Assembly: GCF_000682775.1 (NCBI RefSeq)
Contig: NZ_AWFI01000018.1
Span: forward strand, 62,001 to 126,000
Origin: Hyphomonas sp. L-53-1-40
GTDB taxonomy: Bacteria; Pseudomonadota; Alphaproteobacteria; Caulobacterales; Hyphomonadaceae
Reading direction: 5' to 3'
Length of the DNA stretch: 64,000 nucleotides
The translations under genes and the position numbers were made by a program. Position 1 is the first letter of the stretch; each line of letters starts with the position of its first letter. The notes beneath the pieces are model-generated. The model saw nothing but the letters and a program-made list of their open reading frames with translations. It had not been told where the DNA came from and searched no databases. Positions 49,043-54,859 of this stretch are shown here, in pieces.

Positions 49043-49075
49043 AAAGGGCCGGATGCATGTCATCCGGCCTTTTTT
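49043..49075. terminator. Rho-independent terminator after the HU gene
   Basis: GGCCGGAT (49047-49054) and ATCCGGCC (49062-49069) form an 8-bp stem with a 7-base loop, followed by TTTTTT (49070-49075). On the plus strand it is a textbook terminator for the HU gene. A-rich bases on the left (AAAG) may let it work weakly in the other direction for the convergent ligase gene. Confidence 0.9.
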
Positions 49076-50688
49076 CATTCTTGCAGCATTGCCTCTAGAG
49101 TCTCCAAACGGTCCGCCTCGTTCGCGGGCTTGTCCCAGCGGATGCGGTTGATACGCGGAAAGCGCATGGCGATGCCGGATTTGTGACGGGCCGAGCGCTG
49201 CAGGCCTTCAAAGGCAACTTCCAGCACAAGTGATGGCGTCACGGAGCGCACAGGTCCGAAACGCTCGACCGTGTTGTCACGGACGAATTTGTCGAGCTGT
49301 TTCAGCTCCTCGTCGGTAAAGCCGAAATAGGCCTTGCCAACGGGCGTCAGCCGATCCTCGCCGTCTTCATCGCGCCAGACGGCGAAGGTGAAATCGGAAT
49401 AGAAACTGGAGCGGCGGCCGTGGCCGCGTTGCGCATACAGCAAGACCGCATCGACGAGCCAGGGGTCTCGCTTCCATTTATACCAATGCCCCTTGACGCG
49501 GCCGGGCACATAGGGGCTGTCCCAGCGTTTCAGCATCAGGCCTTCGATCTCCGGGGCAGGGGGCTCCATGCGGTGCGCGTCCAGCGCCGTCAGGTCGGTG
49601 ACGGGCACGAGCGGGGACAGGTCAAAACGCGGGCTCGCCGTTTTCGCGATGAAGTCTTCCAGCCGCTCCCGGCGCTCGCGAAAGCTCAGCGGGCGGATAT
49701 CCTCGCTTCCGGCCTGCAATAGGTCATAAGCGCGGATGAAGGCGGGATGGGTGTCCATCTGCTTTTTCGAGACGGTCTTGCGGTTCAGCCTCTGTTGCAG
49801 CGCGTTGAACGGCGCAACGCTTTGGCCATCCTCCCCGCGCACGAGCAATTCGCCATCCAGCGTGCCTTCAAAACTCATCGCGGCCAGCACGTCCGGGAAA
49901 GTGTGGGAGATGTCGTCCCCCGTCCGCGTATAGATGCGCCGCACGCCGCCTTCGCTGCTGGCCTGCACACGGATGCCGTCATATTTCCATTCGGCGGCAA
50001 AGGCGTCGGCTGTGATCAGGGCCGGGTCCACCGCATCGGGATTATCGCGCTCGGCTTTCGGTACCAGCGGGTGGGCCAGCATGACCGGCCGGAAAGGGGC
50101 CTTGATGTCCGGCTCGGGGCGGCCGGTCTTGCCTTCGAGCCAGGCGAACAGGCTCTCATAGGGCGGGGCGAGGCCGTGCCAGATCTCTTCGATCTCGGTC
50201 ACGTCCACGCCGCCAAAATCCGCGAGCGCCAGTTTGGCAAGCCGCGCGGAGACGCCGATGCGCAGGCCGCCCGTGATCAGTTTGAGCAGCGCCCAGCGGC
50301 CGGTCGGGTCCAGCCCGTCGAGCCAGTTGGCGACCAGTCTCTGCGCCTCGGGCCGTGTCACGCCGTCCAGCGCTTCGACAATCTCGGCCAGCGGCGGTGG
50401 GCGGTTCGCGCGCCGCTCGCCCGGCCAGACGAGGCTGACGGTTTCGGCCATGTCGCCGACATAGTCATAGGACAGGCGGAACAGTTCGGGGTCCATCCGG
50501 TCGGTGACCAGTTCGCGGATCGCGGCGGGCTTGATGCTCTTCAGGTCGAGATCGCCGGTCAGCGCGCCGAGGGCATAGCCGCGGTCGGGGTCTGGGGCGC
50601 TGCGAAAATAGGATACGATCAGGCGTAGCTTGCCGTTACGCGAAGGCGTTAGGACTAGTCGGTCAAGAAGCTCTGCGAAGGCCTGCAT
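49075..50688 (-). CDS. ATP-dependent DNA ligase of the ligase-associated DNA damage response set
   Basis: A 537-residue ATP-dependent ligase sealing nicks. Layout: N-terminal helical DNA-binding domain (1-200), adenylation domain with catalytic Lys235 in the motif KYDG (AEWKYDGIRVQAS), TRTGDDISHTFPDVL, DGELLV (motif III), and EGLMLKRWDSPYVPGRVKGH, then the OB domain ending in SGIAMRFPRINRIRWDKPAN. This size and layout match the bacterial ligase of the set (TIGR04120 type), encoded with exonuclease, helicase and PdeM in many bacteria. All four occur here but not contiguously. The ATG at 50688 was chosen; an in-frame TTG lies 27 bases upstream. Confidence 0.93.
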   Translation of the reverse strand: MQAFAELLDRLVLTPSRNGKLRLIVSYFRSAPDPDRGYALGALTGDLDLKSIKPAAIRELVTDRMDPELFRLSYDYVGDMAETVSLVWPGERRANRPPPLAEIVEALDGVTRPEAQRLVANWLDGLDPTGRWALLKLITGGLRIGVSARLAKLALADFGGVDVTEIEEIWHGLAPPYESLFAWLEGKTGRPEPDIKAPFRPVMLAHPLVPKAERDNPDAVDPALITADAFAAEWKYDGIRVQASSEGGVRRIYTRTGDDISHTFPDVLAAMSFEGTLDGELLVRGEDGQSVAPFNALQQRLNRKTVSKKQMDTHPAFIRAYDLLQAGSEDIRPLSFRERRERLEDFIAKTASPRFDLSPLVPVTDLTALDAHRMEPPAPEIEGLMLKRWDSPYVPGRVKGHWYKWKRDPWLVDAVLLYAQRGHGRRSSFYSDFTFAVWRDEDGEDRLTPVGKAYFGFTDEELKQLDKFVRDNTVERFGPVRSVTPSLVLEVAFEGLQRSARHKSGIAMRFPRINRIRWDKPANEADRLETLEAMLQE

Positions 50689-50738
50689 GCGCCTAAGATA
50701 GAGCCGCCGCGCCAAGAATCCATCTAGGGGAGTCCTCC

Positions 50739-52067: not shown

Positions 52068-52095
52068 GAGATGGGCCCCTGCCTTCGCAGGGGCC
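52068..52095. repeat. Hairpin repeat, copy 1 of a 24-base dispersed element
   Basis: GGCCCCTGC (52074-52082) and GCAGGGGCC (52087-52095) form a 9-bp stem with loop CTTC. The 24-base segment 52068-52091 is identical at 53660-53683. Related shorter sequence lies at about 52008-52022 (CTGCGAAAGCAGG) in opposite orientation. Confidence 0.7.
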
Positions 52096-52140
52096 TGCGG
52101 GAGGAGAGGGCAGACCTTTATCCTCCCGAACGGTTGTCAC

Positions 52141-52167
52141 CCCCCGATGGCCAAAGGCCATCCGGGG
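52141..52167. repeat. Strong hairpin in the non-coding stretch
   Basis: CCCCCGATGGCC (52141-52152) pairs with GGCCATCCGGGG (52156-52167), 11 of 12 bases, around an AAA loop. Not followed by T-run in either direction. Likely part of the repeat cluster. Confidence 0.6.
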
Positions 52168-52286
52168 GCCCATCTCTGAACGGTGCGGCAGAGGACAAAG
52201 GGACGGTGGAAAATCAATCCCATGAACCGCGCAGGACGCCTTGGCAGCTCTGTTCCGCGGTATTATGGAGCAAACTCACCATATGT

Positions 52287-52302
52287 GGTGATTTTAATCA
52301 CC
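52287..52302 (-). terminator. Hairpin directly after the 45-residue ORF
   Basis: GGTGATT and AATCACC (52287-52293 and 52296-52302) form a 7-bp stem with a 2-base spacer, abutting the stop codon at 52303 on the minus strand. The same GGTG/CACC element recurs at about 52279-52290 (CACCATATGTGGTG), so alternative pairings are possible. No long T-run, so terminator function is tentative. Confidence 0.35.
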
Positions 52303-52440
52303 CTATGTGTCGTTTTTTGATTCCGCATCCATGGCGTTGAGGACCAACTGCGCTAATTCGTGGTCGGCCTCATTCCACTCTTCATAGGGAATTTCCCACG
52401 GGTCCGGTTTGGGCTTCGGAGGTTTGGGTTTTTCTGTCAT
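52303..52440 (-). CDS. Tiny proline/lysine-rich protein (45 residues), last gene of a coupled trio
   Basis: The frame reads MTEKPKPPKPKPDPWEIPYE, then EWNEADHELAQLVLNAMDAE and SKNDT. The N-terminal (KP)n-like tail is followed by an acidic helix. Its ATG overlaps the stop of the 40-residue membrane protein by 4 bases (ATGA, 52437-52440), which suggests coupled translation. No homologue known to me. Coding status rests on coupling and on the sensible, non-random composition. Confidence 0.5.
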   Translation of the reverse strand: MTEKPKPPKPKPDPWEIPYEEWNEADHELAQLVLNAMDAESKNDT

Positions 52441-52559
52441 CCGAACAGAAGATACAGGATCAGAGGCGAAAAGAGAAACCCTGCAATCCCGGCCCTTATC
52501 AACAGGGCGGGTTGGGCGGGGTGTAGTTTGGGTCGCGGTCCCAGCCGGACATTAGTCAT
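52437..52559 (-). CDS. Tiny membrane protein (40 residues), middle gene of a coupled trio
   Basis: MTNVRLGPRPKLHPAQPALL followed by IRAGIAGFLFSPLILYLLFG: a basic N-terminus and one C-terminal transmembrane helix. Start ATG 52559 lies 8 bases inside the end of the 261-residue gene (ATGACTAA). Its stop overlaps the next start. Single-helix small proteins next to a large soluble protein can be regulators, toxins or antitoxins; nothing here fixes which. No homologue known to me. Confidence 0.5.
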   Translation of the reverse strand: MTNVRLGPRPKLHPAQPALLIRAGIAGFLFSPLILYLLFG

Positions 52560-53337
52560 GATATGCGGCACGAGCCGGATCGAAAGTCGATGGTGGCTGG
52601 ATATTGCCCCATGCTTCAGCTGCGGTCTCACCACAGGCAACTACATCAGCGAGCTTAGTTTTATAACTCTTCGGGGCGTGCCAAATTTTCTTATGGCGCA
52701 CATAGTAATGCATGCAGTCTGCAGGGAATGGATTCCTTCCTGAAGAGAAATTATCGGCAACGGTCTTGAGAACGAGTAGCGCGACTGAATTTCCGGCGCG
52801 GTCACGTCGATCAATCGTGTCAGGCTTGGATCCAAGCCCCTCACCCTTTTGGGTATTTAGAAACAGGCCCCCCACCCGTTTTTCGCCAGTTTTGCTTTCA
52901 CTATGAATAAGGCAGTCAAGATCGATCCGTACGCTTACCCCACCAACATTTAATGGCTCTTGTTGAGAGTTGATGGGCAATAAGAGTTTCCCATCCTGAT
53001 TGCCATCGTCCCAATCATGAATGAAGCGGTGCATGTTTTCAGCGTTCGCATCATCATTCTCGTGCTGCTCATCAGAGCGTGAATCGTCCGTTAACCTTTT
53101 CTTGTAATCGTCCAGGTGGGCATCTAGAATGCCCTTGTTCGGAAAGGCGCTTGTCAGGTACTGACGCATTGCTCCCCTAGCATCTGAGGCAGACGCACGA
53201 TGACCACGGCGATTGTATTTCGCTCCCCTAAGGATTCCGGGTCTGCTCTTGTCGAGCGCGGCGTGGTACTTTCCGAATGTTACCGCATCCAGGCGGGGTG
53301 TTTCGTAAACATCCCAGATAATATCGGGCTCAGCCAT
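52552..53337 (-). CDS. Unknown 261-residue protein, first gene of a coupled trio
   Basis: I do not recognise this protein. It is soluble, charged, with no signal peptide. Blocks: MAEPDIIWDVYETPRLDAVT, LDKSRPGILRGAKYNRRGHR, an acidic/Asn stretch RSDEQHENDDANAENMHRFI (about 86-106), LLLPINSQQEPLNVGGVSVR, IDLDCLIHSESKTGEKRVGG, and DRRDRAGNSVALLVLKTVAD. The RIDLDCLIH element could hold metal-binding Asp residues, as in nucleases, but this is a guess. Its ATG overlaps a divergent ATG (CATG at 53335-53338) and lacks a clear ribosome site. GC is lower than neighbours (hand counts of two 60-base lines: 45% and 52%, against 67% in a line of the ligase gene), suggesting transfer. Confidence 0.65.
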   Translation of the reverse strand: MAEPDIIWDVYETPRLDAVTFGKYHAALDKSRPGILRGAKYNRRGHRASASDARGAMRQYLTSAFPNKGILDAHLDDYKKRLTDDSRSDEQHENDDANAENMHRFIHDWDDGNQDGKLLLPINSQQEPLNVGGVSVRIDLDCLIHSESKTGEKRVGGLFLNTQKGEGLGSKPDTIDRRDRAGNSVALLVLKTVADNFSSGRNPFPADCMHYYVRHKKIWHAPKSYKTKLADVVACGETAAEAWGNIQPPSTFDPARAAYHD

Positions 53338-53380
53338 GACTGATACTTTCTTTCGAATCGCTTTGGCGGAGAACCACTAT

Positions 53381-53587
53381 ATGTGCATTTCCCCACTAAA
53401 TGAAGACGTGCTAGACGAGGCGATGGTAGATGGCCTTGGTGATGATTTTGGATATTTTGTCTACGAGACAATCGGCCCGCGTAGCAAAGCGTGCATAGAG
53501 GTTCTGGCCAAGTGTCCAACTTACGAAGCGGCGGTTCGCCTTCTTGAATTTCTAGTCCCGCCCCTACACCGTCCGATAGCCGCCTAG
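53381..53587 (+). CDS. Small hypothetical protein, divergent from the coupled trio
   Basis: A 68-residue protein MCISPLNEDVLDEAMVDGLG followed by DDFGYFVYETIGPRSKACIE and VLAKCPTYEAAVRLLEFLVP. The ATG at 53381 has GGAG at 53368-53371, 9 bases away. The frame also extends to an ATG at 53336, but that has no ribosome site and sits on top of the trio's start. Small proteins with this FVYE..VLAKCPTYEAA pattern occur in Rhizobiales-like genomes, function unknown. Lower GC like the trio. Confidence 0.6.
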   Translation: MCISPLNEDVLDEAMVDGLGDDFGYFVYETIGPRSKACIEVLAKCPTYEAAVRLLEFLVPPLHRPIAA

Positions 53588-53659: not shown

Positions 53660-53683
53660 GAGATGGGCCCCTGCCTTCGCAGG
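53660..53683. repeat. Second copy of the 24-base dispersed element
   Basis: Identical over 24 bases to 52068-52091, in the same orientation. The two copies flank the lower-GC trio and its divergent gene, 1592 bases apart start to start. It continues AGGCATGCGCCGG where the other copy has AGGGGCCTGC, so the repeat boundary is near 53683. Confidence 0.7.
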
Positions 53684-53715: not shown

Positions 53716-54744
53716 TCACCCCATCTCTTCCTCATAGCCCACAAGCCGGAGCGGTTTCGCGCGGCGGCCTTCGAGTTCGGCCCAGCGGACGAGGGCGTCT
53801 TCGCGGCCATAGGTGATCCAGAGTTCCTGCGGGTCGACTTCGCGGACCGTGTCGGTCAGCTCGTCCCAGTCGGCATGGTCTGAGATGACCAGCGGCAGTT
53901 CGACGCCGCGCTGCTTGGCGCGCTGTTTGACGCTCATCCAGCCGGACGCAAAGCCGATGACCGGATCGGGGAAGCGCTGGGCCCATTTGCCTTCAAAGGC
54001 GCCGGGCGGGGCGACAATGATCTCGCCCCGGAACACTTCGCGCGCCGATTTTGACATGTCGTCCAGCGTGGCCGGGCGCAGCTCGCCAAGGCTGACGCCC
54101 GCGGCCTCATAGACCTTGCAGAGCTTTTCCAGACTGCCATGAATATAGATCGGCCGGTCATGGCCCGCCATGCGCAGGTGCTTGATGACGCGCTGGGCCT
54201 TGCCGAGCGAATAGGCGCCGATGCAATGGGTGCGGTCCGGATTGTCGGCAACCGATCGCATCAGACGGTCAATCTCGTGTTCCGTGGGCGGATGGCGGAA
54301 GACGGGCAGGCCGAAGGTCGCCTCGGAAATGAAGACATGCGTGTTCTCGACCGGTTCGAACTGGGGGCAGGTCGGATCCCACCGGCGTTTGTAATCGCCG
54401 GTAAAGACCATGCGCAGGCCCTTGTGCTCGACCACGACCTGCGAGGAGCCGAGAATGTGGCCCGCCGGGGAGAGCCAGATGGTCACGCCATTGATCTCGG
54501 TCGCTTCGCCATATTCGACTGCTTGTGTCTGTTTGGCGAAGCTGTCGCCATAGCGCGCGGCCATGATGGACAGCGTGTGGGGATGGGCGAGCACTTTGCC
54601 ATGGCCGCCGCGCGCATGATCGGAATGGCCATGACTGATGACGGCCCGGTCCACCGCGCCGCGCACAGGGTCCAGATAGAAATCGCCCGGCGGGCAATAG
54701 AGGCCCTTGGGGGTGGGGTGGAGCAGGAGGTCTGGCCGCAGCAT
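53716..54744 (-). CDS. Ligase-associated DNA exonuclease (metallo-beta-lactamase/beta-CASP type)
   Basis: A 342-residue nuclease. The metallo-beta-lactamase motif 2 is HGHSDH (His38, His40, Asp42, His43 in VISHGHSDHARGG). Further metal ligands are in SPAGHILGSSQVVVEHKG and FTGDYKRRWD. The beta-CASP-like second half has SDHADWDELTDTV near the end. This matches the exonuclease of the ligase set (TIGR04122 type, previously confused with mRNA 3'-end processing factors). The ATG at 54744 was chosen over an upstream frame reaching 54894. Usually adjacent to the ligase gene; here 3 kb away on the same strand. Confidence 0.92.
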   Translation of the reverse strand: MLRPDLLLHPTPKGLYCPPGDFYLDPVRGAVDRAVISHGHSDHARGGHGKVLAHPHTLSIMAARYGDSFAKQTQAVEYGEATEINGVTIWLSPAGHILGSSQVVVEHKGLRMVFTGDYKRRWDPTCPQFEPVENTHVFISEATFGLPVFRHPPTEHEIDRLMRSVADNPDRTHCIGAYSLGKAQRVIKHLRMAGHDRPIYIHGSLEKLCKVYEAAGVSLGELRPATLDDMSKSAREVFRGEIIVAPPGAFEGKWAQRFPDPVIGFASGWMSVKQRAKQRGVELPLVISDHADWDELTDTVREVDPQELWITYGREDALVRWAELEGRRAKPLRLVGYEEEMG

Positions 54745-54859
54745 GCCTGTAATGTAGGCGGTGTGGCCGAACGGGGAAGGGGCTGGGTGTGGCCTCTTCC
54801 GAAATGCCGGCAGCTGGGGTAGGCGACGGGGTCGTAATTCAGACGTCCGGGAGTCCCTC

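Follow-up and report, generated by a model that had tools for sequence, protein, structure and literature searches.

The functional unit at the locus described here is almost certainly a divergent pair of genes, encoding proteins of 261 and 83 amino acids, and the pair is very probably carried as cargo by mobile DNA. The analysis supports its description as an undescribed, laterally moving cargo module. Our preferred explanation, to which we assign a probability of about 0.5, is a mobile two-gene cassette of paired addiction or defence proteins. In such a cassette a large protein of ~240-260 amino acids and a small one of ~80, encoded head to head with overlapping starts, would act as effector and as controller or antidote, respectively, and the cassette would have spread between replicons as a passenger of IS1595-superfamily transposons and of other mobile DNA.

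The divergent pair and its relatives

The window, i.e. the whole stretch of 64,000 nucleotides that was analysed, derives from a Hyphomonas genome of 3.31 Mb. A first-pass annotation had described a unit of three minus-strand ORFs of 261, 40 and 45 residues at 52303-53337, the first two overlapping by 8 bases and the last two by 4 (ATGA). All three ORFs and both overlaps are present, and so is the divergent small gene that it had mentioned (53336-53587, plus strand, 83 aa). What had been overlooked is that the ATG of this gene overlaps the ATG of the 261-aa gene (52552-53337, minus strand) within one CATG at 53335-53338. The lower GC content claimed for the module was borne out as well (0.51-0.53, against 0.61-0.67 on both flanks).

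The 261-residue protein is the first of its family, whose other members share 17-62% identity with it and come from ~20 loci. Profile searches found these ~20 relatives in Alphaproteobacteria, in a more distant proteobacterium, and on a Rhizobium and a planctomycete plasmid; within the samples of genomes searched, 11/398 from the order and 5/384 others from the class carry the gene. No relatives were found in viral collections and phage records, and one initial match (L010, genome G325) was dropped when the profile gave no confirmation. The nearest annotated relative of the gene comes from a Hyphomonadaceae metagenome bin. On the planctomycete plasmid (NZ_CP011275.1; L058/L033) an unannotated member of the family spans the start of the record and adjoins a DUF4417 gene.

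The closest homologue of the large protein (locus L002, 62% identity) differs from it at 79, 52 and 166 first, second and third codon positions over 261 codons, a purifying pattern in which third positions dominate. Divergent from this homologue and abutting it, L002 encodes an 81-residue protein that is 74-75% identical to the 83-residue product from the window, and here too the differences (17/14/52) are mostly at third positions, indicating purifying selection. Synonymous change is saturated for both genes.

At 17 loci across Alphaproteobacteria a homologue of the small gene lies head to head with the large one, and the two genes are divergent in every case. The small partner was not detected beside the large gene at three loci (L020 in genome G251, genome G846, and the planctomycete plasmid), and when its profile was searched against 299 genomes it was present only where the large gene was also present. 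The two proteins have diverged in parallel (Mantel r 0.77 over 15 loci, p 2e-4; 0.63 without close relatives), a correlation to which shared host history could contribute. Taken together, these sequence comparisons suggest that the two proteins probably act together. In G163 and in Rhizobium gallicum, where the plasmid copy is frameshifted, the small gene is intact next to a disrupted large gene, although these are two cases only and the large gene offers a target three times as big. In the more distant proteobacterium (L064, genome G846) an IS30-like transposase gene interrupts the large gene, with a tyrosine integrase nearby.

The claim that the large protein is undescribed stood up to profile searches: in Pfam, NCBIfam, PADLOC, PHROGs and PDB no match to it or to the small protein was convincing, and PADLOC returned no family at E<=1 for the window proteins or for 11 large homologues. 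Weak matches to phrog_25405 (0.005), HTH_24 (0.007) and DUF4288 (0.08) were not trusted, and matches of the small protein to PPR-repeat PDB profiles were repeat artefacts with no passing stretch. A word search of the literature found no family name for the pair.

Structure prediction with AlphaFold2 on two-row alignments reached a pLDDT of 34 for the large and 62 for the small protein. The N-terminal part of the large protein carries a conserved stretch, LAxYxxAsxxxRRxIIRxaKFP. In a low-confidence model of the secondary structure only, this part is predicted to be helical and the C-terminal part to consist of alternating strands and helices. The order of these elements is reminiscent of a PD-(D/E)XK nuclease, but the D ... 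(D/E)xK set is not conserved, the lysine at 164 is not kept in all members, and this candidate was rejected. The family alignment has neither an acidic residue nor a histidine that is invariant, and so gives no indication of an enzyme.

The conserved polar residues are mostly basic (R32, K40), which would suit a DNA-binding regulator with a co-factor, in which nucleic acid would be bound through the LAxYxxAsxxxRRxIIRxaKFP segment under modulation by the small protein, and the benefit of the cargo is left unspecified. The match to HTH_24 points the same way, but it is weak (E 0.0068), confined to one member, and accompanied by the model with pLDDT 34. We consider a regulator of this kind unlikely, if the best placed of the alternatives to an addiction or defence cassette.

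Carriage by transposons

The first-pass annotation had proposed that the locus is mobile cargo, and relatives of the pair do lie inside transposons. In five loci (L066, L067, L068, L073 and L079) terminal inverted repeats of 17-27 bp enclose the pair together with a transposase. Exact target duplications of 8 bp flank L066 (GCCCGAAA), L067 (CGCTTGAT) and L073 (GTTTTTCG), and duplications of 6 bp flank L068 and L079. The transposases of L066 and L079 belong to DDE_Tnp_IS1595 (3e-28 and 1e-38), the one in L067 is homologous in sequence to that of L066, and those of L068 and L073 match DDE_Tnp_IS1 (9e-9 and 7e-7). The features by which IS1595-superfamily passengers are recognised (a transposase, terminal repeats and a target duplication) thus surround members of this family of pairs in five genomes. 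Most loci of the pair are without any transposase, and further copies are situated close to tyrosine integrases, recognised in the sequence by eye (L064 and L069), or on a conjugative plasmid.

The co-cargo varies from element to element, and includes DUF3800, DUF1828 (which matches a PADLOC candidate), a SocA/Panacea-type antitoxin beside the pair in L079, and small KRPRDP-type proteins. Elsewhere the neighbours include Fic and a restriction enzyme, and in some loci they match the PADLOC entries PDC-S05, PDC-M24B, SoFic-like and AlbA/helicase-like. Both L066 (10923-11135) and L067 (10043-10249), which are IS1595-type elements, encode a conserved two-helix membrane protein of 68-70 aa (WRWVRPSW...RTWFWYE), located on different sides of the pair in the two elements. 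The two IS1-type elements share a related basic protein of 78-80 aa (KRPRDPxxLAKxIxxIATG; L068:7286-7528, L073:7687-7923) and, at the opposite end, a convergent gene for a 153-166-aa protein. Small GIY-YIG-type genes lie 0.2-0.5 kb from the pair in two unrelated genomes (L065:11422-11721 and L070:9351-9653).

In the five elements the pair adjoins a terminal repeat, ~5-80 bp from the nearest end. Such a position would be expected of an accessory pair that aids or regulates transposition (target choice, immunity or control of the transposase) and has no effect on the host. The carriers, however, have unrelated transposases of IS1595 and IS1 type, and the pair is found with no transposase at all in most loci, and also on plasmids and beside tyrosine integrases, so that a role in transposition is rather improbable. 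The pair could also be of an ordinary kind, accessory genes for metabolism or stress that simply happen to reside on mobile DNA, in line with the fact that neither gene is functionally annotated and that the co-cargo is heterogeneous. On the other hand, a pairing with overlapping starts that is conserved at ~20-25% identity, combined with a patchy distribution, would be unusual for such genes, and we regard this explanation, too, as improbable.

The copy in the window and its surroundings

The module had been placed inside a repair gene set. This is correct in so far as a ligase (49075-50715) and an exonuclease (53716-54759) flank the site on either side, but they also have a GST gene between them, and several congeners have a trypsin-like protease gene in the slot beside the exonuclease. 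In these congeners (L037-L043) it is a conserved, lipoprotein-like gene of trypsin type that fills the slot of the module, and the window genome is without it there.

The 24-base direct repeat GAGATGGGCCCCTGCCTTCGCAGG reported on both flanks is exact, at 52068-52091 and 53660-53683 on the plus strand. Even with up to 2 mismatches allowed, the 3.3-Mb genome contains no further copies, which rules out a genome-wide dispersed repeat as the source. A 109-base palindromic repeat (GAGATGGGCCCC...GGGGGCCCATCTC, 52068-52176) begins with the left copy. The right copy runs on into another palindrome (CATGCGCCGG). In a congener whose exonuclease is 92% identical (G110) the sequence aligns on both sides of the site and measures 0.2 kb instead of 1.6 kb, i.e. 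the site is empty; at the place of the left copy, its ancestral-site equivalent reads GCGATGGATGCCTGCCTTCGCAGG. A degenerate form of the 109-base repeat is found at the equivalent place in this congener (L035:113). The empty site, like the transposons of its relatives, agrees with the mobile cargo claim.

No transposase ORF is present among the ORFs of 46-60 kb of the window, and a comparison of the sequence around the window copy (52303-53587) with the five known transposon ends gave no match to terminal repeats above shuffles. Because the site is empty in one congener and the slot is filled differently in others, the paired 24-base repeats fit arrival by recombination between palindromic repeats. 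As judged from the sequence, this is consistent with such a route and not proof of it; the window copy would then have come in between two palindromic repeats and been left stranded there without a transposase.

The two tiny ORFs behind the large gene appear to be local passengers or non-coding. The 40-aa ORF (52437-52559, minus strand), which contains a hydrophobic stretch and starts at an ATG inside ATGACTAA, and the KP-rich 45-aa ORF (52303-52440, minus strand) are not conserved: in L002 no counterpart of either follows the stop codon of the large gene, local searches across all homologous loci gave nothing beyond chance matches, and the 45-residue peptide had no match in 40 related genomes. 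The three-gene unit is unsupported, since the large protein has homologues that are not accompanied by the tiny ORFs. A three-gene micro-operon in which the membrane peptide and the KP-rich one serve as toxin, anchor or antidote, suggested by overlaps of 8 and 4 bases that could couple translation, is thus most improbable given that both ORFs are absent behind the large gene in the 62%-identical L002 and unmatched at the other homologous loci. Where the 45-aa ORF ends, a hairpin (CATATGTGGTGATTTTAATCACCCTATGTG; 52280-52318, z -1.4) with a run of six T behind it on the plus strand resembles a plus-strand terminator, for which there is no obvious plus-strand gene.

Overlapping starts, proposed function and known systems

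The two start codons overlap in one CATG at 10/17 loci, despite a mean identity of ~25%; the minus-strand ATG in the window is 53337-53335 and the plus-strand ATG 53336-53338. At five of the remaining loci the starts are 25-31 bases apart, and at two they are ambiguous. Where the starts overlap, each gene must have its ribosome site antisense inside its partner. Shine-Dalgarno-like tetramers were found upstream of the start, inside the opposite gene, in 8/10 cases for the large and 6/10 for the small gene, compared with 1.2 and 1.8 expected from shuffles, a control that is imperfect because codon constraints act on the opposite strand. With ribosome site and leader antisense to the first codons of the partner, the two mRNAs would pair at their 5' ends and the expression of one gene would limit the other. 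We infer the overlap of the transcripts from this geometry, and give antisense coupling of the two genes roughly even odds.

An addiction or defence function is suggested by the pairing, the small-plus-large layout, the patchy spread and the cargo status of the genes, and by neighbours of toxin-antitoxin and candidate-defence type, along with the two loci that retain an intact small gene next to a broken large one. In contrast, neither protein is homologous to any toxin, antitoxin, nuclease or defence protein in the databases searched, and this, the divergent layout and the solitary large genes argue against a textbook toxin-antitoxin pair. The large genes with no detectable partner (in G251, G846 and the planctomycete plasmid) in particular fit poorly with a lethal toxin that always needs its antidote. 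On balance, an addiction or defence function appears plausible, at odds a little below even. It is more tentative still that the pair represents a new class of mobile addiction or defence module, spread by IS1595-superfamily elements, with the shared CATG as a built-in sense/antisense switch.

These results turn an isolated oddity into a testable family of protein pairs: its boundaries are defined, its two members are aligned, and intact transposons are available for cloning. It is an unusual expression architecture for divergent start codons to overlap and for this overlap to be conserved, and as a source of genes for addiction and defence the small passenger modules of IS1595-type elements have been little explored.

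Type II toxin-antitoxin pairs are typically co-directional operons. The pair resembles them in combining a large and a small protein, in its patchy, plasmid- and transposon-borne occurrence, and in its position beside a Panacea-type antitoxin in L079. It differs in being divergent, not operonic, in 17/17 loci, in showing no toxin or antitoxin homology, and in that some of the large genes are solitary. The likeness to PADLOC candidate defence genes resides in the neighbours, which match entries in some loci, whereas the two members of the pair themselves match no PADLOC model.

The five transposon-borne relatives are like the 'transporter IS' of the IS1595 family with passenger genes, as these are referred to (Siguier, Gagnevin and Chandler 2009, cited in PMC3129680). 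Compared with that outline, the window copy and most loci of the pair differ in being without transposase and ends. In the excludon, the 5' leaders are mutually antisense (PMC7154746), and the leaders of the pair must likewise overlap if they carry the Shine-Dalgarno-like motifs; the sequence geometry is compatible with such an arrangement. The pair goes further than the excludon, however, in that the overlap extends even to the start codons (CATG) and this geometry is kept across the protein family.
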